Of a stretch of 64,000 bases of DNA, positions 5,898 through 54,165 are shown in pieces; positions within the stretch are counted from its first letter, which is position 1; every line of letters starts with the position of its first letter. The notes beneath the pieces were generated by a model. The model saw only the letters and a program-made list of their open reading frames with translations, was not told the origin of the DNA and did not search any database. The DNA comes from a virus, in IMG/VR virus record IMGVR_UViG_3300037278_000142, positions 1 to 64,000 of that record, one strand, 5' to 3'. The position numbers were made by a program, and so were the translations under genes.

Positions 5898-6194
5898 TTA
5901 GTCCGTATCCAGATTGTGTTCGCCGCACTTGGGGCACGCTGGCCACTTGCCTCCGTTAGCCGCGATAGCTTTCTTCCAGCTTGCGTGCGTCCACCACTTC
6001 TGAGTGAATGGAGCCGAGAGCCGCCAGTAGATGCACCTAGCCAACACGACCCAACTGAATTCCTTCTTCTCGGTTCGCACCATCTTGGGAAACCAGAGCC
6101 ACTTGATGTCGCTCATCAGGACGGTGAAGGGGTTGTAGCTGGAAGTCCAGAAATCGTCTTGTTCCCACGGGCAGCTATGACAGTGTATGTACAT
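5898..6194 (-). CDS. Zinc-ribbon-like hypothetical protein (98 aa)
   Basis: 98 residues with CHSCPW at the N-terminus and CPKCGEHN at the C-terminus, enclosing a tryptophan-rich region; the four cysteines could form one split zinc site. The upstream DNA reads TTGTGC, 20 nt, TATTAT, then 5 nt to the ATG. That gives the same total spacing as the leaderless promoters at 33.7, 34.6 and 36.6 kb, so this gene may also be translated without a leader. Function unknown. Confidence 0.7.
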   Translation of the reverse strand: MYIHCHSCPWEQDDFWTSSYNPFTVLMSDIKWLWFPKMVRTEKKEFSWVVLARCIYWRLSAPFTQKWWTHASWKKAIAANGGKWPACPKCGEHNLDTD

Positions 6195-6252
6195 ACCCTA
6201 TAATACGCAACCTTGGCTTATAACCGCACAACAGAATATGCTTGTGGTTACG

Positions 6253-28146: not shown

Positions 28147-28260
28147 ATGTACATACAAGCTAAAAGTACAGTATTTAGGTAGTGTAGGTGATTACAGGCA
28201 CACTTCGACTTATTACTAATCTACCTGTAATTTTTAGATTTGTCAATAACAAAGGAAAAA

Positions 28261-29001
28261 ATGGCGGGAGTGGCGGGGGTTTACATATGGTTGAACTTGG
28301 TGAACGGTAAAGTATACGTCGGGTCAGCCAAATTTATACCCAGAAGAAAGTCCGCTCACCTTAGAGCCCTGAAGTTGGGGAAGCATCATAGCCCTCATTT
28401 TCAAGCGGCGTGGGATAAGTATGGTGAAGCTGCGTTCCAATTTGGAATCGTGGAAGAAGTCCTTGATGAGCTTTGGCTCCGGGCGAGAGAGACGGTTTGG
28501 ATTAAACAGCTACGGTCAGCCGAGTCTGTCTATGGGTACAACATCGCTCGTGACGGCTGGACTGCGGCTCAGCTTGAGCCCACAGAACGTCGCCGGGAAG
28601 CATGGAAGAAGAATGGTGAGCGTAAGAGGGGTGTTCAGGACCCACCTGAGGTTAGAGCTAGAAAGAAAGCGGCAAGTCAGGGTAGAACGCCCCCAAGTCA
28701 CCTGAACCATAAACACAGCGAAGAAACCAGAGCTAAAATGCGTGCTGCATGGGCGCGAAAGAAAGCTCGTGGGTATACGTCACCTGTAACTTTTACAACA
28801 GCCGGGAGACCCTCTTGGAATAAAGGAATACCCCCTTCCAAGGAATCCCGTCAGAAACTATCCATTTCACTAAGACTAAGCTGGACTCCTGAACGCCGCG
28901 CTGCACAAGCAGAACGGGCACGCAAACAAGGCTTAGCAAATTCAAAAAACCAACACAAAATCGGAGCTACGGAGCCGCGTTGTGTTGTGGAGGTGTCGTG
29001 A
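28261..29001 (+). CDS. GIY-YIG homing endonuclease with NUMOD3 repeats
   Basis: 246 residues from ATG 28261 (AAAGGA before it; an upstream TTG at 28240 is less likely). GVYIWLNLVNGKVYVGSAK is the GIY-YIG core, followed by HFQAAWDKYGEAAFQF, E-rich helix and YGYNIARDG. Three NUMOD-like blocks follow (SEETRAKMRAAWARKK, WNKGIPPSKESRQKLS). Free-standing in the plus-strand segment. Confidence 0.94.
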   Translation: MAGVAGVYIWLNLVNGKVYVGSAKFIPRRKSAHLRALKLGKHHSPHFQAAWDKYGEAAFQFGIVEEVLDELWLRARETVWIKQLRSAESVYGYNIARDGWTAAQLEPTERRREAWKKNGERKRGVQDPPEVRARKKAASQGRTPPSHLNHKHSEETRAKMRAAWARKKARGYTSPVTFTTAGRPSWNKGIPPSKESRQKLSISLRLSWTPERRAAQAERARKQGLANSKNQHKIGATEPRCVVEVS

Positions 29002-29004
29002 TGA

Positions 29005-29766
29005 GTGAAAATACTCCTTACTTTCGATAGCGTGACCAGTGCCAGAGCTATGCTTCTGAGCGAGGATGAGCAACTAGAAGGCGCGACCACCATTAGCTTG
29101 GAGACGCAAGCCGACCTAGCTGAGGAAGACATCCTCAGTTTCATTAGCGAGAACTTTGAACGATTCCTGCGGACGCTCCGCTTCCTGAAGAAAGAAGACC
29201 AAGAACTTCTCCTCAGCTACTATCTGCTGTCGAAGACTCAGTCCACCCTCGCCCTCATCCACAAGTCAACGCAGACCGTTTGCAGCTTCCGTATCCGCAT
29301 GGCGGTGAAAACGCTGGGCACATTCATGATGGTGGGGGAGCCCACCGAAGAACTACTACATGAGGTCTTGGAAAAGGCTGGGCTGGAGAACTCACTGGAG
29401 CCGCTAGGCATCGAATCCCCGTCGCCGAAACCCCGACTCTCCACGGTTGTGATGGAGTATGTCAGGACTCGCAACTTCCAACAGGTAGCAAATCACTTCG
29501 GGCTACACCGACCAGATGTACGTCGGGCTATGAGCAGGGCATCCAAGGCTCTCATGGACTCCAAGGACGGCAAGGAAGCTGCTGTGGCAGCGTGGCTACA
29601 CTCACTCATCGACAAGGTATCACCGGTTGGAACCGGGTTCTCTAAACGCAAGGCACAGAAGATGGGGCACATATACATGAAATCTAGTGCAGTTCTCGGT
29701 CAGTTTAGGGTGAATATCGAGGACCCTGACTTTTCACAATGGTTCGTTTCGAGAGCCAGCAGGTAG
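29005..29766 (+). CDS. Helix-turn-helix protein, possible transcription factor (253 aa)
   Basis: 253 residues from a GTG start; an internal ATG at 29050 is an alternative. Two helix-turn-helix-like blocks: LLLSYYLLSKTQSTLALIHK…RIRMAVKTLG (about 70-110), reminiscent of sigma region 4, and RNFQQVANHFGLHRPDVRRA (about 150-170). No region 2 or enzyme motif. Could regulate phage transcription; family not established. Directly follows the GIY-YIG gene. Confidence 0.75.
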   Translation: MKILLTFDSVTSARAMLLSEDEQLEGATTISLETQADLAEEDILSFISENFERFLRTLRFLKKEDQELLLSYYLLSKTQSTLALIHKSTQTVCSFRIRMAVKTLGTFMMVGEPTEELLHEVLEKAGLENSLEPLGIESPSPKPRLSTVVMEYVRTRNFQQVANHFGLHRPDVRRAMSRASKALMDSKDGKEAAVAAWLHSLIDKVSPVGTGFSKRKAQKMGHIYMKSSAVLGQFRVNIEDPDFSQWFVSRASR

Positions 29767-31173: not shown

Positions 31174-31386
31174 TCAATCCCACCTCGCGGTTTCGGTATC
31201 TAGCAGGTGGATGTGCATATCCTTGAGATCGCCAGCCAAAAGCAGTAAGCCGTTCTTGACCGCTTCGATGCGCTCGCGCTCCTTCTTGGTTCTCGCTGTG
31301 GCCAGTGCGGAGTTACGTAATTCGGCTTGAAACTCAATGTAGCGGATCACCTCCGCTTTTATGGCTGTTCCCTTGATGAAAATCAT
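31174..31386 (-). CDS. Hypothetical helical protein (70 aa)
   Basis: ATG 31386 overlaps the upstream stop by 4 bp. Helical, basic: ELRNSALATARTKKERERIEAV. Not recognised. Confidence 0.62.
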   Translation of the reverse strand: MIFIKGTAIKAEVIRYIEFQAELRNSALATARTKKERERIEAVKNGLLLLAGDLKDMHIHLLDTETARWD

Positions 31387-31730
31387 TGCGTCTCCATTCG
31401 GTTGGGTGCGTTCTTGATTGTTGGTTGACTCGGTGCTGCGGTGTCGCCTGTCCAGCCCCATGCACGAGCCATAGCTACAAGCTTGGGGAAGGAGGGTGCT
31501 GTTACTCGCTTGGTTGTCGGGTTCCACTTGTGCAGCTTCGCCAGTGGGAGAGCCCTATAGTCCACGAAGACTGTCTCGTTCAGAACTGCATTGTATCCGA
31601 CCCAGCCTGTCAGCAGCCAGAAGCACTGGTTGGCACATACTCCGAATCCGATGGTACGCTTCGAGCCGCAGAGCACGCAATGTGATACTTCGATGTTCCT
31701 GCGACCGACCGGGCGTACTGTAATCCTCAT
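31383..31730 (-). CDS. Hypothetical protein (115 aa)
   Basis: 115 residues with CVLCGSKR and CANQC in the N-terminal third (possible zinc site) and an aromatic-rich middle. Upstream reads GGTATACTGAGAAGTAGGAG: a TATACT -10 like the leaderless promoters, but here with a leader and a ribosome-binding site. Not recognised. Confidence 0.68.
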   Translation of the reverse strand: MRITVRPVGRRNIEVSHCVLCGSKRTIGFGVCANQCFWLLTGWVGYNAVLNETVFVDYRALPLAKLHKWNPTTKRVTAPSFPKLVAMARAWGWTGDTAAPSQPTIKNAPNRMETQ

Positions 31731-31825
31731 AAAAGCATCTCCTACTTCTCAGTATACCAAGCACATCGCTCTTTTGGTTAGTTTTTTTTGAAAACTATTT
31801 TCTCGGTCGTACCGTTAACCTTTCT

Positions 31826-33397: not shown

Positions 33398-33658
33398 TTA
33401 GCTCACGTAGGCGGTGATTTCATAGTCGCCCGATACTTCCATTTTGTACCACGACAGGCAGAGCCAAGTGTTGACACCGACCTGCTCGTTTACCCGGCCT
33501 TCACGACCGCAGTAGATTCCCTCTTCCATGCCCTTGAGACCAGCCTGATTCAGGATGGCGTCGATGTCGGCGATGGGGATGAAGCGGTGGTAGGTCGCCA
33601 TCGCGGCGAGAAGCTTGTTCGCAATCTTACGGGCTCGGGTTTCGTTCACGTTTGCCAT
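33398..33658 (-). CDS. Hypothetical protein (86 aa), leaderless start
   Basis: 86 residues: helical N-terminus NETRARKIANKLLAAMATYH, DIDAILNQAGL, then a beta C-terminus. No ribosome-binding site; the ATG is 6 nt after a TATACT -10 box, so the mRNA should begin at the start codon. Not recognised. Confidence 0.72.
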   Translation of the reverse strand: MANVNETRARKIANKLLAAMATYHRFIPIADIDAILNQAGLKGMEEGIYCGREGRVNEQVGVNTWLCLSWYKMEVSGDYEITAYVS

Positions 33659-33664
33659 GTCTGT

Positions 33665-33695
33665 AGTATACGGGACTAACCACGGTTATGAACAA
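33665..33695 (-). promoter_or_regulatory. Leaderless-type promoter (TTGTTC-N19-TATACT)
   Basis: TTGTTC at 33695-33690, 19 nt, TATACT at 33670-33665, then 6 nt to the ATG. Upstream is AATTTCCAAAATAG, shared with the promoters at 34601 and 36620. Confidence 0.82.
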
Positions 33696-33973
33696 CTATT
33701 TTGGAAATTTTTACTGTCCGCCGTTCTTGGCGACCATGATGGGTGGGACTCGCAAAGGACATCAATCTCTTCGAGGCCGTTGCTGCCGTCCAGATATGCC
33801 CAAACCTGCTCAGCGTCATCGTCGGACAGGCCGGTGAGGAACTTGCGGAGGACATCCGGCATGGTGGAGGTCTCAGCGGCTGCGTCGGCGAGGTCGGCAT
33901 CCTTGGCGTCTTTCGCCCACTGCGGGGCTGGTGTCCATCCAAACGGGGCGGGGACTGCGACGGGCTGTTTCAT
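33686..33973 (-). CDS. Hypothetical acidic protein (95 aa)
   Basis: ATG 33973 after CTAGGAGCCACC. Begins MKQPVAVPAPFGWTPAPQWA, then an Asp/Ala-rich helix and LRKFLTGLSDDDAEQVWAYL. Its last codons overlap the promoter of the next gene. Not recognised. Confidence 0.65.
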   Translation of the reverse strand: MKQPVAVPAPFGWTPAPQWAKDAKDADLADAAAETSTMPDVLRKFLTGLSDDDAEQVWAYLDGSNGLEEIDVLCESHPSWSPRTADSKNFQNSCS

Positions 33974-33981
33974 GGTGGCTC

Positions 33982-34113
33982 CTAGCGGGTGTGGCGGGGC
34001 TTCAGGCGGCTGAGGCGGGTTGGGTGGAGGGCTCGGTAGCAAACATCCTCTACAGAGCCCCTACGGGCGACCAGAACGGCGGTAATCGTGAGATAAAGAC
34101 CAAGTATGTGCAT
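33982..34113 (-). CDS. Small membrane protein (43 aa)
   Basis: ATG 34113 to TAG 33982. One N-terminal hydrophobic helix (MHILGLYLTITAVLVA) followed by a basic tail rich in Arg. Not recognised. Confidence 0.5.
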   Translation of the reverse strand: MHILGLYLTITAVLVARRGSVEDVCYRALHPTRLSRLKPRHTR

Positions 34114-34117
34114 GGGA

Positions 34118-34594
34118 TTAGGCGTGCATAATCTGGCTGTTGAGGCTGGCCTTGCGGTCAGCGTTCATGGAAGGGTAGTAGGTGGCCCGGATGCCCTCGA
34201 TGGGGTTGAAGGTCAGCTTGTAATCCGGGTGGAGACGGCTAGTGTCGGTGACCGCAGGGCAGGTCGTGATACTCAGAACTTCCGCACGGGCAGCAGCCTC
34301 AACCTCAGGCGTCACGTCGTATTTGAAGGACTGGAGCGTGTCCGACTTGACCGGGCTGGCATTGAGCAACGCGGCCCAATCCTCAGGCTTGATGTGAGCC
34401 GACCCGTTGTAGCTGTACAGGGCCTTGACCCAAATGTAGCCAGTCATGGCGGTAATGGTGAGAAGCTGAGATTTCCGGCAACCCGGCAGGATGCCCCATA
34501 CCCGGTGGCTGGCGTAGTAACCAGTCTTGGAGTGGCTGTTGGCCGAGACTTCAATCTTGGAGGCGGTAATTTGGAGTGCGGTAGACTTCTTCAT
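34118..34594 (-). CDS. Hypothetical protein (158 aa), leaderless start
   Basis: Start taken at ATG 34594, 6 nt after TATACT; a GTG two codons earlier would fall before the expected transcription start. Mixed alpha/beta protein with TGYYASHRVWGILPGCRKS and YSYNGSAHIKPEDWAALL. Not recognised. Confidence 0.75.
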   Translation of the reverse strand: MKKSTALQITASKIEVSANSHSKTGYYASHRVWGILPGCRKSQLLTITAMTGYIWVKALYSYNGSAHIKPEDWAALLNASPVKSDTLQSFKYDVTPEVEAAARAEVLSITTCPAVTDTSRLHPDYKLTFNPIEGIRATYYPSMNADRKASLNSQIMHA

Positions 34595-34600
34595 ACCCAC

Positions 34601-34631
34601 AGTATACCGGGGCGACAGGTCTTTCGAACAA
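34601..34631 (-). promoter_or_regulatory. Leaderless-type promoter (TTGTTC-N19-TATACT)
   Basis: TTGTTC at 34631-34626, 19 nt, TATACT at 34606-34601, 6 nt to ATG 34594. Upstream AATTCCTAAAATAG matches the sister promoters. Confidence 0.83.
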
Positions 34632-34647
34632 CTATTTTAGGAATTTT

Positions 34648-34863
34648 TTACCTGTCCATCGCTTCCATGGCACGGTCTTGGGCGGCTTCCCGGCGACGGG
34701 CGAGGTAACGGGGGTCGTACTCCCAGTACCGGCCATCGAGGATGCCGAACTCAATACCGGAGTCGATGTAGTTGGCGGTCAGGATGTCCCGGCCATACCC
34801 CATGAGGAACATAGGGCGGCAGTCACCATGGACGGCTAGGGAGCGTGAGGTCTTGAGGGACAT
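34648..34863 (-). CDS. Hypothetical protein (71 aa)
   Basis: 71 residues; ILDGRYWEYDPRYLARRREAA is a charged helix at the C-terminus. The ATG follows the previous stop by 2 bp. Not recognised. Confidence 0.68.
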   Translation of the reverse strand: MSLKTSRSLAVHGDCRPMFLMGYGRDILTANYIDSGIEFGILDGRYWEYDPRYLARRREAAQDRAMEAMDR

Positions 34864-34865
34864 GG

Positions 34866-34970
34866 TTAGCCCACCAGCAGGAAGGCGATGCTGCCAAGGA
34901 TGGCACCCAAGGCTATGCCGTCCGCGATGACGCGAGACATCGAGGGTGTTTCTTTGTAGAAGAGTTTCAT
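34866..34970 (-). CDS. Very small membrane protein (34 aa)
   Basis: ATG 34970 after ATAGGAGACCACC. MKLFYKETPSMSRVIADGIA, then a hydrophobic ALGAILGSIAFLLVG end: a single-span membrane peptide. Confidence 0.6.
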   Translation of the reverse strand: MKLFYKETPSMSRVIADGIALGAILGSIAFLLVG

Positions 34971-34979
34971 GGTGGTCTC

Positions 34980-35153
34980 CTATTTCGGGAATTGAAGTAC
35001 GGTGAGGTACAGGGCGTCGAAGAACACGAAGATGTGTGCGGCGAGTAGCACCATGCTACCAGCGAAAGACTTCAGGCGGAACCGGCTGACCATCAGGTGG
35101 TAGTCGGCGTAGAAGAATGCGGCCCACAGGGCGATGGTGAACCGGATTAGCAT
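34980..35153 (-). CDS. Small membrane protein (57 aa)
   Basis: ATG 35153, overlapping the DUF262 stop by 7 bp; longer in-frame readings run through that gene and are unlikely. Two transmembrane helices (IALWAAFFYADYHLMV and SMVLLAAHIFVFFDALYL). Not recognised. Confidence 0.65.
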   Translation of the reverse strand: MLIRFTIALWAAFFYADYHLMVSRFRLKSFAGSMVLLAAHIFVFFDALYLTVLQFPK

Positions 35154-36013
35154 TTGGTGTTCTCCAGAACGTCGTGAGCCATGGCTTCCACGAGGGCTTC
35201 CTCGTACAGCTTGCGTGCCTTGGCGATGTGCTCTTCGGTCTGAGGTACACCGCCAACGTTGACCGAGAGGAACAGCCAGAGAACGTCCGACCGCTTGACC
35301 CGGCTGGCTTGCAGCTTGGCGTACTGCACACCCAAGTCCGTGAACGAGTGCTTGTCGCCCCGGCTGAACTGGAACCACGTCTTGCCCTTGAACGTGAAGC
35401 GGCCCTCCATGAACTCGATGATGGCGTTCATACGCTGCTTGCCGTCGATGACTTCCAGACGGTAGTCCTCGTCACGTTCGAGGAACACAAACTTGCCGAT
35501 GTCCGTCCTGTCCATGATGGAGTGGATGAGACGCTGCTTGTCTTCGAGCGACCACACGTAGTCACGCTGGTAGTCCGGCGATGTGATGAAGCCCCGGTGA
35601 TACGCCATGTGAACCAGTGAGTCCAGCGAGGTAGAGAGGTAGGAGGTCTGAAGGGACTCCCGGCCAAAGTTGGTGTCTTCTTCGGTGACGAGAGGCTCGA
35701 CATCGTGCCACCAGCGATAGAGCGGGAGACGGCGGTTGTTGTCGAACGGCTTGCCATACTCCTGACCCACGTCTGAGCGGCTGATGTGAATCACCTTGCC
35801 GTCCATGAGAACCTCTTCGACCGTGCAGTCCACGAGGTTGCCGATGCGAACCTTCTCACCAACCTTGAAGTCGTAGTTGGGGGGGTTGACCTGAGCAAGT
35901 TGGTCGCGGATGTCACGCTGGAATGAACCCCACTCGTGGACGCGGAAATCCTCGTAGGTCTCAGGTGCCTTGGGTGCCTTGGGTGCCTTCGGCTTACGTG
36001 TCTTTGTAGTCAT
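35147..36013 (-). CDS. DUF262 (ParB/GmrS-like) protein
   Basis: 288 residues. After a Lys/Ala/Pro-rich N-terminus and a beta-barrel-like region, the DUF262 core is clear: PDYQRDYVWSLEDKQRLIHS (about 148-168), IGKFVFLER, and YRLEVIDGKQRMNAIIEFM with the DGQ/KR catalytic-type loop near 192. In type IV restriction (GmrSD) this domain binds NTP and drives cleavage. The partner DUF1524 nuclease half is absent here, so this stand-alone version may be regulatory or counter-defence. Confidence 0.88.
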   Translation of the reverse strand: MTTKTRKPKAPKAPKAPETYEDFRVHEWGSFQRDIRDQLAQVNPPNYDFKVGEKVRIGNLVDCTVEEVLMDGKVIHISRSDVGQEYGKPFDNNRRLPLYRWWHDVEPLVTEEDTNFGRESLQTSYLSTSLDSLVHMAYHRGFITSPDYQRDYVWSLEDKQRLIHSIMDRTDIGKFVFLERDEDYRLEVIDGKQRMNAIIEFMEGRFTFKGKTWFQFSRGDKHSFTDLGVQYAKLQASRVKRSDVLWLFLSVNVGGVPQTEEHIAKARKLYEEALVEAMAHDVLENTKC

Positions 36014-36016
36014 GAC

Positions 36017-36613
36017 CTAACTCCGGTAGTAATGGTTCTGGCTGATGTAGGCGAAGGCTTCCTTCATGTTCTTGTACGTGCGCGAACTACCGAAGCGGGT
36101 GGAGATGACCCAATACTCCCCCGTGAAGTAGAACTGCTCCACTTCGGTACACTCATCACACGTAAAGACGCCGAAGTGCTTGTGCCCAAAGTCATTCTTG
36201 GTGACATAGAGTAGCAGGGTCTTTATCGCCTGACGCTGCCGCTCGTTGTGCTTGAGACCCTCAGGGCTACGTTGCAAGTCAATCGTAATGACCCGTTGTT
36301 GGGTATCCTTCCAGACGTTGCCACAGAATACCGCCGTCAGACCTAAGTCCGTGAGGGTCTTGACGAAAGCTGTGTACTTAGCGTCCGAGGTAGGGTACGC
36401 TGCCAGCAGGAACTTCCAGTCGAGCTTCTTCTTGGCAAGGGTGAGGCGATGGGCATGTTCGATGAGGTCGTTCATGTTTGCCTGAGTCACAGCAATCTGT
36501 GCCTCAAGGGGCTTGGTCATACGCTTGATTTCCTTGTCGAGAGCCTCGACCTGCTTCTGCTCAGCCATCGCCAGAGCCATCAGGGACTTCGCGGTATGTG
36601 TCTTGATTGCCAT
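36017..36613 (-). CDS. Hypothetical protein (198 aa), leaderless start
   Basis: Start taken at ATG 36613, 6 nt after TATACT. N-terminal coiled coil (MAEQKQVEALDKEIKRMTKP…), then an alpha/beta region with TCDECTEVEQFYF and SSRTYKNMKEAFAYI. Not recognised. First gene of the operon that includes DUF262. Confidence 0.75.
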   Translation of the reverse strand: MAIKTHTAKSLMALAMAEQKQVEALDKEIKRMTKPLEAQIAVTQANMNDLIEHAHRLTLAKKKLDWKFLLAAYPTSDAKYTAFVKTLTDLGLTAVFCGNVWKDTQQRVITIDLQRSPEGLKHNERQRQAIKTLLLYVTKNDFGHKHFGVFTCDECTEVEQFYFTGEYWVISTRFGSSRTYKNMKEAFAYISQNHYYRS

Positions 36614-36619
36614 GGGTAC

Positions 36620-36650
36620 AGTATACCTGACGTGACACGAAGTTGAACAA
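36620..36650 (-). promoter_or_regulatory. Leaderless-type promoter (TTGTTC-N19-TATACT)
   Basis: TTGTTC at 36650-36645, 19 nt, TATACT at 36625-36620, 6 nt to the ATG at 36613; AATTACCGAAATTC upstream. Confidence 0.83.
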
Positions 36651-36680
36651 GAATTTCGGTAATTTTTTACGATGTCGGGA

Positions 36681-36747
36681 AAGCGACACAATGTTACCGG
36701 TTAAGAGCTTTTTAGCGGATAAGCGGCACAACGTTACCGGTTAGAGG
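36681..36747. repeat. Iteron-like direct repeats
   Basis: AAGCGRCACAAYGTTACCGG plus TTA occurs at 36681 and 36721, 40 bp apart, two mismatches. A related inverted copy (GGTAACAATGTG) lies at 36813. They fill the gap between divergent genes. Confidence 0.8.
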
Positions 36748-37111: not shown

Positions 37112-37924
37112 TTATAGCTCGATGCCGTACCGCTTGGCAATACGGTTGCGGGTACGCTCACGAACGGATGCGGCCTTGTTCTCTTCAGAGCTTCCCTGTG
37201 CTTCGGGAATCTCCAGCTTGGCTGGTGCCTCAGGCTTGGCGTTGTTGTCGCGGTCAGTGATGAACGGGACGGAGCCATCGGCCTTTTTTTCCTTCTTAGT
37301 ATGAATCGGGTCTTTCTCTTTCTTATGGCACTCTTCGCAGAAATCTGTGCTGTGACCTGCCGCAAACGGGGTCATTTTGTAAGCGTGAGGTTTAGTTTTA
37401 ATCTTGGCTTCCTTGTCGAAAGCTTCCTCAGCCGGTTTGGCTTCAGAAGACTCAAGTTCCTTTTCGCCTTCCTCGAACTTCTCCTCGTCAACGGTAATCT
37501 TCTCTTCAGGATGTTCCTTCTCGCCTTCGACAACTTCCTTCTCACCCTCTTCGGCGAAAGCATCTTCGACCGGGGTCAGGTCGAGGTCAATACCCATGTT
37601 CTCGGCGAGAGCTTCAATCGCACCGGCAACATCATCGAGTGAGTGATAAACCTCGCTGATAGCGTCGGCCACAACTTCAGGGGCCTCTTCAGCGATACGC
37701 TTGAACGCGGTCGCGTACTTCTTGGTGGTAGCAAGACGGACTTGGATGGAGGCAGTCTTCGGAGCCTCGATGAGGTCGAGATTGTCACGCAGGTTCGACA
37801 AGGCGTCGGCCATAGTGCCAAGAGCGTCGGCTACTTCCGCGAGAGCCACATCAGCTTCTTTCGGCTCCTCGCCAGCTACCTGACGGAGACGAGCCCACTT
37901 CGATTGTTCATTCTTACTAGCCAT
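37112..37924 (-). CDS. Acidic virion-type/assembly protein (270 aa)
   Basis: 270 residues: a helical N-terminal domain (about 1-110), then a long Glu/Lys-rich tract (EEGEKEVVEGEKEHPEEK), and a basic C-terminus RERTRNRIAKRYGIEL. FCEECHKKEKD is a lone cysteine knuckle. Such acidic, low-complexity proteins are typical of phage assembly factors. A hairpin ACTGC-AAAAA-GTGCAGT precedes its GGAGG. Confidence 0.8.
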   Translation of the reverse strand: MASKNEQSKWARLRQVAGEEPKEADVALAEVADALGTMADALSNLRDNLDLIEAPKTASIQVRLATTKKYATAFKRIAEEAPEVVADAISEVYHSLDDVAGAIEALAENMGIDLDLTPVEDAFAEEGEKEVVEGEKEHPEEKITVDEEKFEEGEKELESSEAKPAEEAFDKEAKIKTKPHAYKMTPFAAGHSTDFCEECHKKEKDPIHTKKEKKADGSVPFITDRDNNAKPEAPAKLEIPEAQGSSEENKAASVRERTRNRIAKRYGIEL

Positions 37925-50810: not shown

Positions 50811-51707
50811 CTACAAAGAGATGAGGTCAAAGGCACCATTGGTGATATAAAGCTTATAGGGGAGATTGGTTTCAATGTCAGTAAACGGCAGGTAGGGAAC
50901 CCCCACTCCACTCAGCACTGGGATAAACTCCAATGCACCACTCGTGACTTGAAGCTGGTACAAGCTGCTCGTAACCGAGTCAATCAGTATCACCTCACTC
51001 ACGCCTGCTGCCACTACAACAGGGATGACAGTCACTGCTCCATCTGCAACTACAACGTTATAGGCACCCTCTGTAACGGTATCCACAAATGTGAATACAA
51101 GCACCGTAACTTGAGCCGTTGTAGTAAGTGCGAGGTGCCCCACCACGTCATAGGCGTCCAACGTAAAGAGAGTTGTTGTAGACACTCCTTCTGGAAAGAA
51201 CACACTCCCAACGCCCCCTGTATCGATGAGCCCAGAGTCATACCCCGTCGCCGTTATTCTAATTTGAACAATACCCGTGGTCTCCCAGATAAGGGTGAGG
51301 GGGACGTAAAGGGCTGTGACCGAGTTAGGGATAGCTCTAAGGATTGCAGTTGGGGTGGGGTTTGTTCCTACGTCTCCTGCGCTACTGTACCCTGCTATCA
51401 AAGCGAAGCTGGGTAACCCCCTCACCCCTGAGTCTATAAAGAAGGGTCTGGGCATGTGGTGTATGGCTTGAATCACTCCCTGTAGGTTGATTGAAGTGTC
51501 CATATAGAGCAGGTACCTATTATTTTCGACATCGAACGCGAATGTACGTACCGGGGTGAGGTACCCATCCACATACACTTCAAGGTCGCGGCGAGGGTCG
51601 AACTCCCCTAGAGGTCCTTCCTGCACAAATGGACCGAGGTAGTCATTCAGAATCCACTGGATGCGGTCAGGGTAGGGGGTATTGGTTTCAAAACTAAACA
51701 TCGTCAT
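50811..51707 (-). CDS. Virion-type protein with three tandem beta motifs (298 aa)
   Basis: 298 residues. N-terminal domain with DRIQWILNDYLGPFVQEGPL and YVDGYLTPV. The last 95 residues contain three copies of the motif D-x-x-T-x-x-x-Y-x-L/V-x-V-x-x-G-A: TEGAYNVVVADGAVTVIP, SSLYQLQVTSGALEFIP and NLPYKLYITNGAFDLIS. Single copies end two other virion-type proteins in the window. Not a named family; probable tail or capsid surface component. Start overlaps the intein-bearing gene by 14 bp. Confidence 0.82.
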   Translation of the reverse strand: MTMFSFETNTPYPDRIQWILNDYLGPFVQEGPLGEFDPRRDLEVYVDGYLTPVRTFAFDVENNRYLLYMDTSINLQGVIQAIHHMPRPFFIDSGVRGLPSFALIAGYSSAGDVGTNPTPTAILRAIPNSVTALYVPLTLIWETTGIVQIRITATGYDSGLIDTGGVGSVFFPEGVSTTTLFTLDAYDVVGHLALTTTAQVTVLVFTFVDTVTEGAYNVVVADGAVTVIPVVVAAGVSEVILIDSVTSSLYQLQVTSGALEFIPVLSGVGVPYLPFTDIETNLPYKLYITNGAFDLISL

Positions 51708-54165
51708 CCCCCACCAACATAGACAGCAGTTTCATCTCTAGTGAAGTCTGCTTGCGTTTCTTCATCTTCTGTTCAACCTGTTCTTTGGTTTTACGCATGG
51801 TGCTCAACAGGTCGTCGTCCGTTGGAACGTTGTGTCCATGCTCTGCCTTCTCAGCCTCAGTCTCATAGGGGAGCCCCTTATGCAAGTGGGGTTCCTTCTT
51901 TATCTTGTCGTGCTCCTGTTGCTCAAGCTTATGTTCTTCGTTCTCCACCATAGCGTTGAGGTCGTCTTCCCCCTCCGGCTCTTCCTTGGACACATCCTCA
52001 GTCTTCGGCGTGTCCACAACCAAGGGTTCTGTCGCGTTCTCATTACGTTCGACAACACCGGGGACTTCTTCCTCTTCGGGAGCCTTCTTACCTTCTTCCT
52101 GTTCACGCAGGGCATCGATGAGCTTTTGTTGGATGCTCTTGTTTTTCTTCTCGCGGAGCTTCTTTATCTCCTGACGCTTCTTCATCGCGTCCTGTTCCTT
52201 CTTCAGTTTCTCCGACTTCTCCGTGGGCTGTTGTTTGTCCTTGTTCCGTTTAACCGTATTCTCACGGATAATGTTCTGAATGTTGTGCTGCACAGAGGGT
52301 AGGATACGTTCCAGCACAGCCTTTTCGTGCTTGCAATTGTGTACGACCACACCATTAGCTATAAATGATTCATCTTCATCCACGGTCAAATCGTGAAAAT
52401 ATTCCGGGGCATCAACATCATTCGCTGAGTGAAGCACTCTAGTAAACCCATCTTGCCATACATCGGTTTCTTGGTTAGGAAGACCTGTATTCAACTGGTC
52501 GATAACATGAGTACGCAACCTACCCCTCATCAAATCAAGAAGCTGGGGGTACTGTTTGTAATTCCAGTAAAGGCGGAAATACCTGTTTTTCTTTCTAACC
52601 CCCTCCTTTTTACCCCGCCAATCTTGGTGGAGACGCCCATGCCAAATACCCATGCTATACAGCATGGTAGATATTTGGGATACAACATGAGGAGAGATTG
52701 AATACACATATTGTTGCCCCGAAGCATCAAAATGCCCATCCCCCAAAGCGTAAGATGACACAAGGGCTTGAATGGCCTCTGTGTTCCACTTAAACACATC
52801 AGGAGCGAGGCGCTTCGTAAGGGAGCCGCACCCCGCCAATTGAATCATCTTAGCCGCAAACTTACCGTCATTGACAATGACATTGAGCCACTTTTTCCCC
52901 CCATAGTTGCGAAACTTAATTTGAATATCAGCTTCAGCCCCGAGAACCCCAAACAATTTGGACTGGATATCCTGCCCAAGAGTTTCGGCCTCGTCCTGAT
53001 TAATCGTAAAGTTTACCCCCCATACACGAGAGGTTACCCCGTTTATATCGCATACCACTCCTTTTGTGGTGGGTCTGCCTGACTTGACCTTATTCGGGAT
53101 TCCCTTTCTATATATTGGGCTACCTTCTGCCAAATAATACCCCAGCAAAGAAGCAAAGTTGGAATCAACTTCAGTGCCTCCATCCCATTGTATTTTTGGG
53201 AAAAACAGGTACTCGTGAAACTCCAATTTATCCGATTCAACCCACCCCAACTTGCCTTGTGAGCAGTCTTCAATTTCAGGATCGCCCACATGGGCGACCC
53301 GGTTTTGCACTCGGGATATAGTGCCCTGACTAACCCCATACCTCTCAGCCAGAGTGTACTGATTTTCTATACTTGAATGTATCTCAGCTATTGCTTCCTC
53401 AGAGAGTTTTCGAGAAGGACGATTACGGTGGTGACCCGGCAAGAACTTACGCCCCCACTTTACCCCCCTATAACCGAGGGGCAGTGAACCTTTACAGCCA
53501 CAGAAGCAGGTTTCATTTCCTCGCACAACAGCTAGTGGGTGCTCTTTAGATACAATCAGGGGTTCGGATGCCCCTTTAGCTCTAACCTCCCGAGCTATCT
53601 CTCCAACATGTGCAGGTCGTCCAGAAACATGAGTAACTTTACGAGCACGCCCTTTATGAGTGACAACCCAATCCCCCACCTGTACATTTTCAATCAGTTT
53701 TTCAGTACCATCCCCCATCAGGACGCGGGTTCCGGGGGCTACGCATAAAACAAAATTCTTACGTAGGTCAAGCCGCTTCGTAGGAGCAGTAAGTTCCGGG
53801 CGTGGCTCACCCAGCAGGGCATCTCGCTGGTGAAGGTTCCACTGAGCCCCCCAGTAGAGATGGGCAGGGCAGCTACAATTAAGCTTCACATCAAGGTCGT
53901 TGGCGTTCTGAGTATCCTCCACCTTGTCCACGTCAAACTTCACCGTCACGTCGTGACCGGCAGGGTCTGAGTAGGACTCACGGCACTTAACGTTGTAGCG
54001 AAGAAACAACTGCTTCGGGTTCGAGTCGAGCAGGGAGGGAGTACAGCCGGGACGACGCTTGATACTAAAAGAATTCGTCTGGCTCACAAGTTCGGGTACG
54101 CTAATCGCCACTTTAGTTTGCGGGTAGCTGATGTTGCCGAGTGAGATGGTGATAAAGGAAGCCAT
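51694..54165 (-). CDS. Structural-type protein with SWIM-like zinc motif, interrupted by an intein
   Basis: 823 residues as translated, 353 after removal of the intein (141-610). The N-terminal domain (1-140) ends in NCSCPAHLYWG…FVL|CKHEKAVL: with the intein removed this is C-x-C…C-x-H, the SWIM zinc-finger pattern. The C-terminal half is a highly charged coiled coil (KEQDAMKKRQEIKKLREKKN). No enzyme motif. Location in the structural unit suggests a virion assembly protein. Confidence 0.88.
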   Translation of the reverse strand: MASFITISLGNISYPQTKVAISVPELVSQTNSFSIKRRPGCTPSLLDSNPKQLFLRYNVKCRESYSDPAGHDVTVKFDVDKVEDTQNANDLDVKLNCSCPAHLYWGAQWNLHQRDALLGEPRPELTAPTKRLDLRKNFVLCVAPGTRVLMGDGTEKLIENVQVGDWVVTHKGRARKVTHVSGRPAHVGEIAREVRAKGASEPLIVSKEHPLAVVRGNETCFCGCKGSLPLGYRGVKWGRKFLPGHHRNRPSRKLSEEAIAEIHSSIENQYTLAERYGVSQGTISRVQNRVAHVGDPEIEDCSQGKLGWVESDKLEFHEYLFFPKIQWDGGTEVDSNFASLLGYYLAEGSPIYRKGIPNKVKSGRPTTKGVVCDINGVTSRVWGVNFTINQDEAETLGQDIQSKLFGVLGAEADIQIKFRNYGGKKWLNVIVNDGKFAAKMIQLAGCGSLTKRLAPDVFKWNTEAIQALVSSYALGDGHFDASGQQYVYSISPHVVSQISTMLYSMGIWHGRLHQDWRGKKEGVRKKNRYFRLYWNYKQYPQLLDLMRGRLRTHVIDQLNTGLPNQETDVWQDGFTRVLHSANDVDAPEYFHDLTVDEDESFIANGVVVHNCKHEKAVLERILPSVQHNIQNIIRENTVKRNKDKQQPTEKSEKLKKEQDAMKKRQEIKKLREKKNKSIQQKLIDALREQEEGKKAPEEEEVPGVVERNENATEPLVVDTPKTEDVSKEEPEGEDDLNAMVENEEHKLEQQEHDKIKKEPHLHKGLPYETEAEKAEHGHNVPTDDDLLSTMRKTKEQVEQKMKKRKQTSLEMKLLSMLVGDDDV
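52336..53745 (-). mobile_element. Class 1 intein with homing endonuclease and helix-turn-helix
   Basis: Residues 141-610 (470 aa). Canonical Cys1 in CVAPGTRVLMGDG, block G ANGVVVHN followed by Cys+1. Two endonuclease motifs, LLGYYLAEGS (about 341-349) and SYALGDGHFD (about 471-480). Between the splicing block B and the first of these lies RKLSEEAIAEIHSS…TLAERYGVSQGTISRVQNR (about 252-289), a clear helix-turn-helix insertion not usual in minimal inteins. Confidence 0.95.

Follow-up and report, generated by a model that had tools for sequence, protein, structure and literature searches.

We asked whether three genes of a large phage could be transcribed into mRNAs that begin with the start codon itself. 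In the stretch of 64,000 nucleotides that we analysed (the window), a preliminary description had pointed to three promoters of identical architecture, each ending six bases ahead of an ATG. This was borne out: TTGTTC-N19-TATACT-N6-ATG has three exact matches, at 33656-33695, 34592-34631 and 36611-36650 of the minus strand (Table 1), and 100 dinucleotide shuffles gave 0 matches (0 expected). The search for the 37-nt pattern in the rest of the genome, which had been proposed as a check, turned up five exact matches over the whole 183,684-bp record, each of them on the minus strand (0 for the reversed pattern used as a control). At one of the two matches outside the window (108082) the ATG opens an ORF of only 13 codons, so an ATG at N6 need not always be the start of a gene. 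The A-rich block described ahead of the promoters exists at all three sites (AAATTTCCAAAATAG, AAATTCCTAAAATAG and AAATTACCGAAATTC) but is looser than the AATTNCC-AAAT first given for it. As described, the three genes (86, 158 and 198 aa) lack a Shine-Dalgarno (SD) sequence, whereas genes near them have one, with GGAG 11 nt upstream at 36013 and GGAGG at 37924. The gene at 6194, said to show the same overall distance with variant boxes, does keep the 37 nt in total (TTGTGC-N20-TATTAT-N5-ATG), but it has no A-rich block and is absent among the hits to the promoter family described below. The GTATTAT sites of this phage, 6194 included, have no clear consensus. We regard this gene as a weak case, not a clear family member, and set it aside.

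Table 1. Features of the window that bear on leaderless transcription
Feature	Position	Strand	Details
Gene A promoter	33656..33715	-	A-rich block 33696-33715, TTGTTC 33690-33695, N19, TATACT 33665-33670, N6, ATG 33656-33658 (predicted +1)
Gene A, 86 aa, predicted leaderless	33398..33658	-	No SD; orthologs 59-66% identical
Gene B promoter	34592..34651	-	A-rich block 34632-34651, TTGTTC 34626-34631, N19, TATACT 34601-34606, N6, ATG 34592-34594 (predicted +1)
Gene B, 158 aa, predicted leaderless	34118..34594	-	No SD; orthologs, alignment
198-aa gene promoter	36611..36670	-	A-rich block 36651-36670, TTGTTC 36645-36650, N19, TATACT 36620-36625, N6, ATG 36611-36613 (predicted +1)
198-aa gene, predicted leaderless, phrog_7208 (unknown function)	36017..36613	-	No SD; PHROG match E 2.1e-9
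GmrSD_N-domain gene, directly downstream of the 198-aa gene, SD GGAG	35147..36013	-	PF03235 E 1.1e-17
Gene C promoter	31728..31781	-	CTAACC 31776-31781, N19, TATACT 31751-31756, SD leader (TAGGAG), ATG 31728-31730; matrix score 25.6
Gene C, 115 aa, SD-leadered in the window phage	31383..31730	-	Leaderless in four relatives
6194 case, TATTAT-N5-ATG	6192..6205	-	Left out of the promoter family
Conserved protein with weak similarity to sigma region 4 or antiterminator Q	29005..29766	+	Weak PF04545 hit

The phage itself is larger than the window. Records G000-G003 derive from a single soil phage (overlaps ~99.98% identical or more), and with G004 added they span 355,946 bp, which makes this a jumbo phage (356 kb or more) whose genome may still be incomplete; coordinates above 64,000 carry the window frame into this wider genome. 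A weight matrix found 21 sites above 20 bits there, compared with a peak of 11.0 in the reversed control. Since the matrix was built from 13 sites picked for TATACT and spacing, the tests of the spacer and of the N6 peak weigh more. YTGTYC was followed by GTATACT with a spacer of 18 (19 to TATACT) in 13 cases and with a spacer one base longer in 1 (reversed control 0). The -35/-10 spacing is thus strict in 13/14 cases, and likewise in 28/28 promoters of phage Tunturi_5. ATG-led ORFs of at least 40 codons are over-represented at a single distance from the 42 GTATACT sites: 12 start at N6 and at most 2 at any other distance (0.23 expected per spacing). The three window sites belong to a family of about 20 promoters with fixed -35/-10 spacing. 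Its -10 box is TATACT, in every case GTATACT, one mismatch away from the TATAAT-like -10 of sigma70; the -35 is YTGTYC at 19 bp and not TTGACA-like at ~17 bp. The family departs from the canonical sigma70 type, and canonical TTGACA-TATAAT promoters are not enriched in the window phage. A scan of viral contigs with the pattern was set aside, as its matches beyond the phage's own contigs look like chance and have no A-rich block.

Where, then, would transcription begin? The base preceding the ATG is a pyrimidine in all 12 GTATACT-N6-ATG sites of the window phage and in 16/16 such sites of further relatives. The next base, N7, is a purine in 70/73 promoters from four phages, and in 47/50 of the members without an ATG there, 37 of which carry an SD-like sequence just downstream. 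As the purine is kept with or without an ATG, the +1 of the family promoters is most likely N7 in either case. Family members are mostly of two kinds, with the start codon at +1 or with a short SD leader from +1 or just after it. At the three genes the -10 box lies ~12 nt upstream of the start codon, the distance by which leaderless genes are recognised. With this layout (A-rich block, -35 box, 19 bp, TATACT, six bases, +1), RNA polymerase would start at the seventh base past the -10 box, a position taken in all three window sites by the first base of the ATG. The mRNA would be leader-free and ribosomes would have to bind its 5'-terminal AUG directly, while other members would produce a short SD-containing leader from the same +1.

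The comparison with four relatives (G033, G034, G035 and G037; 70-73% nucleotide identity where aligned) bears on this reading. Three of them, G034, G035 and G037, share with the window phage a gene B (34594) that is leaderless by its layout. In these three, gene A (33658) has an SD leader of 13-16 nt, whereas in the window phage it is leaderless; in G034 this leader has an in-frame GTG at +1, a possible leaderless GTG start. Gene C (31730) shows the reverse: it is SD-leadered in the window phage but leaderless in all four relatives. Two genes outside the window, leaderless in the window phage, are SD-leadered in G005 and G010 (261952) and in G005 (274928). Judged from these alignments, orthologs switch between leaderless and SD-leadered forms in both directions at one +1, and they gain or lose the leader with start codon and promoter geometry conserved. 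The 198-aa protein matched only the same phage in a contig scan of its own; weak matches occur in relatives G033 and G037.

We weighed three other explanations of these data. If the promoters are real but the RNA begins 1-3 nt ahead of the ATG, the mRNAs would be near-leaderless with a tiny leader. Start sites can indeed shift by a base or two, and two deviating members have their ATG at N7 (301894) and N8 (315469). We nevertheless consider this improbable, because the pyrimidine at N6 and the purine at N7 are kept even where there is no ATG, and the ATG peak falls exactly at N6. The N6 distance could also be incidental if the genes were mainly translated from longer transcripts started upstream. 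Upstream operons often read through into phage genes; but the three genes have no SD, so longer transcripts would be poorly translated, and both the N6 peak and the leader switching would be left unexplained, which makes this very unlikely. It is hardly credible, finally, that the repeated element is no promoter and only the binding site of another protein. An A-rich block with strict spacing could fit a DNA-binding protein, but the sites immediately precede genes encoded on the same strand and combine a -10-like box with a purine at +1, and the members without an ATG mostly precede an SD and a start codon. We favour a rigid, phage-specific promoter family whose +1 at N7 coincides, with high probability, with the first base of the start codon in the window's three cases, giving leaderless mRNAs.

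Does the same arrangement extend to other phages? In G033, G034, G035 and G037 the family promoters are mostly CTAGCC-N19-TATACT with N6 kept, while G005 and G013 have TGGAC or TAGCC at the -35 position. The closest isolate by the major head protein is Tunturi_5 (72.6% identical; next Bacillus phage G, 35.6%), a 309-kb jumbo phage of Tunturiibacter (Acidobacteriota) (PMC11924767). Its whole record (PP885688.1) contains 28 TCATCT-N18-TAGGTT promoters with a single spacing; nine have an ATG at N6 (+1), and in most of the rest an SD lies on or close to +1. Aligned by their boxes, the relatives retain the geometry and alter the -35, and Tunturi_5 alters both boxes. The eight Tunturi_5 leaderless ATGs that we checked are all the depositors' annotated starts (8/8). 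These predicted leaderless genes include DNA ligase gp61, PAPS reductase gp62 and RecT-like gp318, which lies directly ahead of the GmrSD-like gp317; the DNA of the window's GmrSD_N gene matches gp317. A text search of the Tunturi_5 paper (PMC11924767) found no mention of promoters.

Relatives of the window phage are abundant among viral contigs, and its own host is probably a member of the Acidobacteriota. We call this host inferred because it is drawn from relatives of the phage. The family motifs were absent from 400 kb each of Edaphobacter (Tunturiibacter) lichenicola and Occallatibacter savannae. In both Acidobacteriota samples, TANNNT before ATG peaks at N6 (9 versus a background of 2.68, and 15 versus 2.05), and a survey found leaderless genes in 3/3 Acidobacteria genomes (PMC3160421). 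Together these suggest that a leaderless translation route is available in Acidobacteriota, and the likely host phylum appears to use it for some of its own genes. The leaderless reading of the preliminary description thus gains support from the N6 peak of ATGs, the +1 purine kept without an ATG, the leader switching and the -10-to-ATG distance in relatives of the likely host, and leaderless transcription of the three genes is strongly supported by this sequence evidence.

Next comes the question of which factor reads the promoters. We infer that the host core polymerase, directed by a phage-encoded specificity factor, would do so, and such a factor is plausible in the window phage. Sigma factors are encoded by G007, by G005 (a two-domain protein) and, going by the annotation of gp211, by Tunturi_5. 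The G005 gene (G005:128644, minus) stands behind a family promoter (TAGCC-N18-GTATACT), which suggests self-regulation. In the window phage, whose genome may be incomplete, searches with Pfam, tblastn and a custom profile recognised no sigma factor. The protein at 29005-29766 is conserved in Tunturi_5, G005, G010 and G013; its Tunturi_5 homolog has a Phage_antitermQ match below the cut-off, and its structure model is of low confidence (mean pLDDT 57). That this protein is the promoter-specificity factor is speculative. Next to it, at 28240-29001 on the plus strand, lies a gene whose 253-aa product looks, on visual inspection, like a GIY-YIG homing endonuclease. A multisubunit polymerase of the phiKZ/AR9 type was rejected as the reader, as Rpb1 (PF04997) had no match in Tunturi_5 or in G000-G003, which cover the wider genome up to its last 55 kb (in G004), while 14/14 controls matched. 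A search for a single-subunit phage RNA polymerase was uninformative, since its controls gave no match.

Leaderless mRNAs are already known, phages included (PMC5312081, PMC11373665, PMC3160421). Bacterial leaderless (TA-led) genes, known in Acidobacteria among others, resemble the three genes in having the first T of the -10 box 12 nt before the start codon and no SD (PMC3160421); the window family differs in that its promoters belong to a phage, have a strict -35, and share their +1 with SD-leadered members. Mycobacteriophage Adephagia likewise has repeated promoter motifs and a predicted leaderless transcript (gene 90), but its SigA-like hexamers are 17-18 bp apart, only one gene is predicted to be leaderless, and phage and host are unrelated (PMC11373665). 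Promoters of the phiKZ/AR9 type likewise form phage-specific classes in a jumbo phage, with a start six bases beyond the early motif (PMC5312081); AR9 differs in its leaders of 26-491 nt and in its own multisubunit polymerases, compared with no Rpb1 found in G000-G003. Promoters of alternative (ECF-type) sigma factors share the strict spacing and non-canonical boxes, and Tunturi_5 and G005 do encode sigma factors, but the window phage has no recognised one. Within the literature searched, what appears to be new is a jumbo-phage promoter family with one +1 for leaderless and minimally leadered genes; the replaced boxes and the reciprocal leader switching between orthologs appear new as well.

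It is possible, if doubtful, that this lineage carries a fast-evolving, phage-encoded specificity factor, its boxes being exchanged between phages with the +1 kept, and that the gain or loss of a minimal leader tunes each gene between leaderless and SD-dependent translation, perhaps matching changes in host translation during infection. Studies of leaderless mRNAs usually deal with one gene at a time. The family offers natural matched pairs, alike in gene, promoter type and start codon, with the SD leader present or absent, and Tunturi_5 with its culturable Tunturiibacter host makes the system testable in the laboratory. Such pairs could directly reveal the circumstances in which a virus relies on leaderless translation, and the way leaders come and go in evolution. 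The family also supplies a model of the promoters in a large group of uncultured jumbo phages of peat and soil.

Several further features were observed. A near-repeat (GACACAATGTTACCGGTTA / GGCACAACGTTACCGGTTA, ~36680-36745) just upstream of the 36620 promoter is a possible regulatory site. Outside the window, a second promoter-like set, approximately TTGCAN-N16/17-TATTAT behind an A-rich block and nearer to sigma70, occurs at 102745, 228920, 230849, 322241 and elsewhere; the site at 230849 is just ahead of a tRNA-like sequence. The wider genome has 33 tRNA genes, one of which, with anticodon CTA (104424-104497, minus, outside the window), could read amber codons, yet TAG is an ordinary stop in this phage. 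TAG recoding had been considered for the 13-codon ORF at 108078 and was ruled out, as TAG ends 81 called genes and there is no excess of in-frame extension. At 51694-54165 the minus strand encodes an 823-aa protein carrying intein/Hint domains. Two family promoters outside the window, 279308 and 279411, lie 103 bp apart on one reading frame, with a predicted leaderless form of 161 aa nested inside an SD-leadered form of 190 aa.
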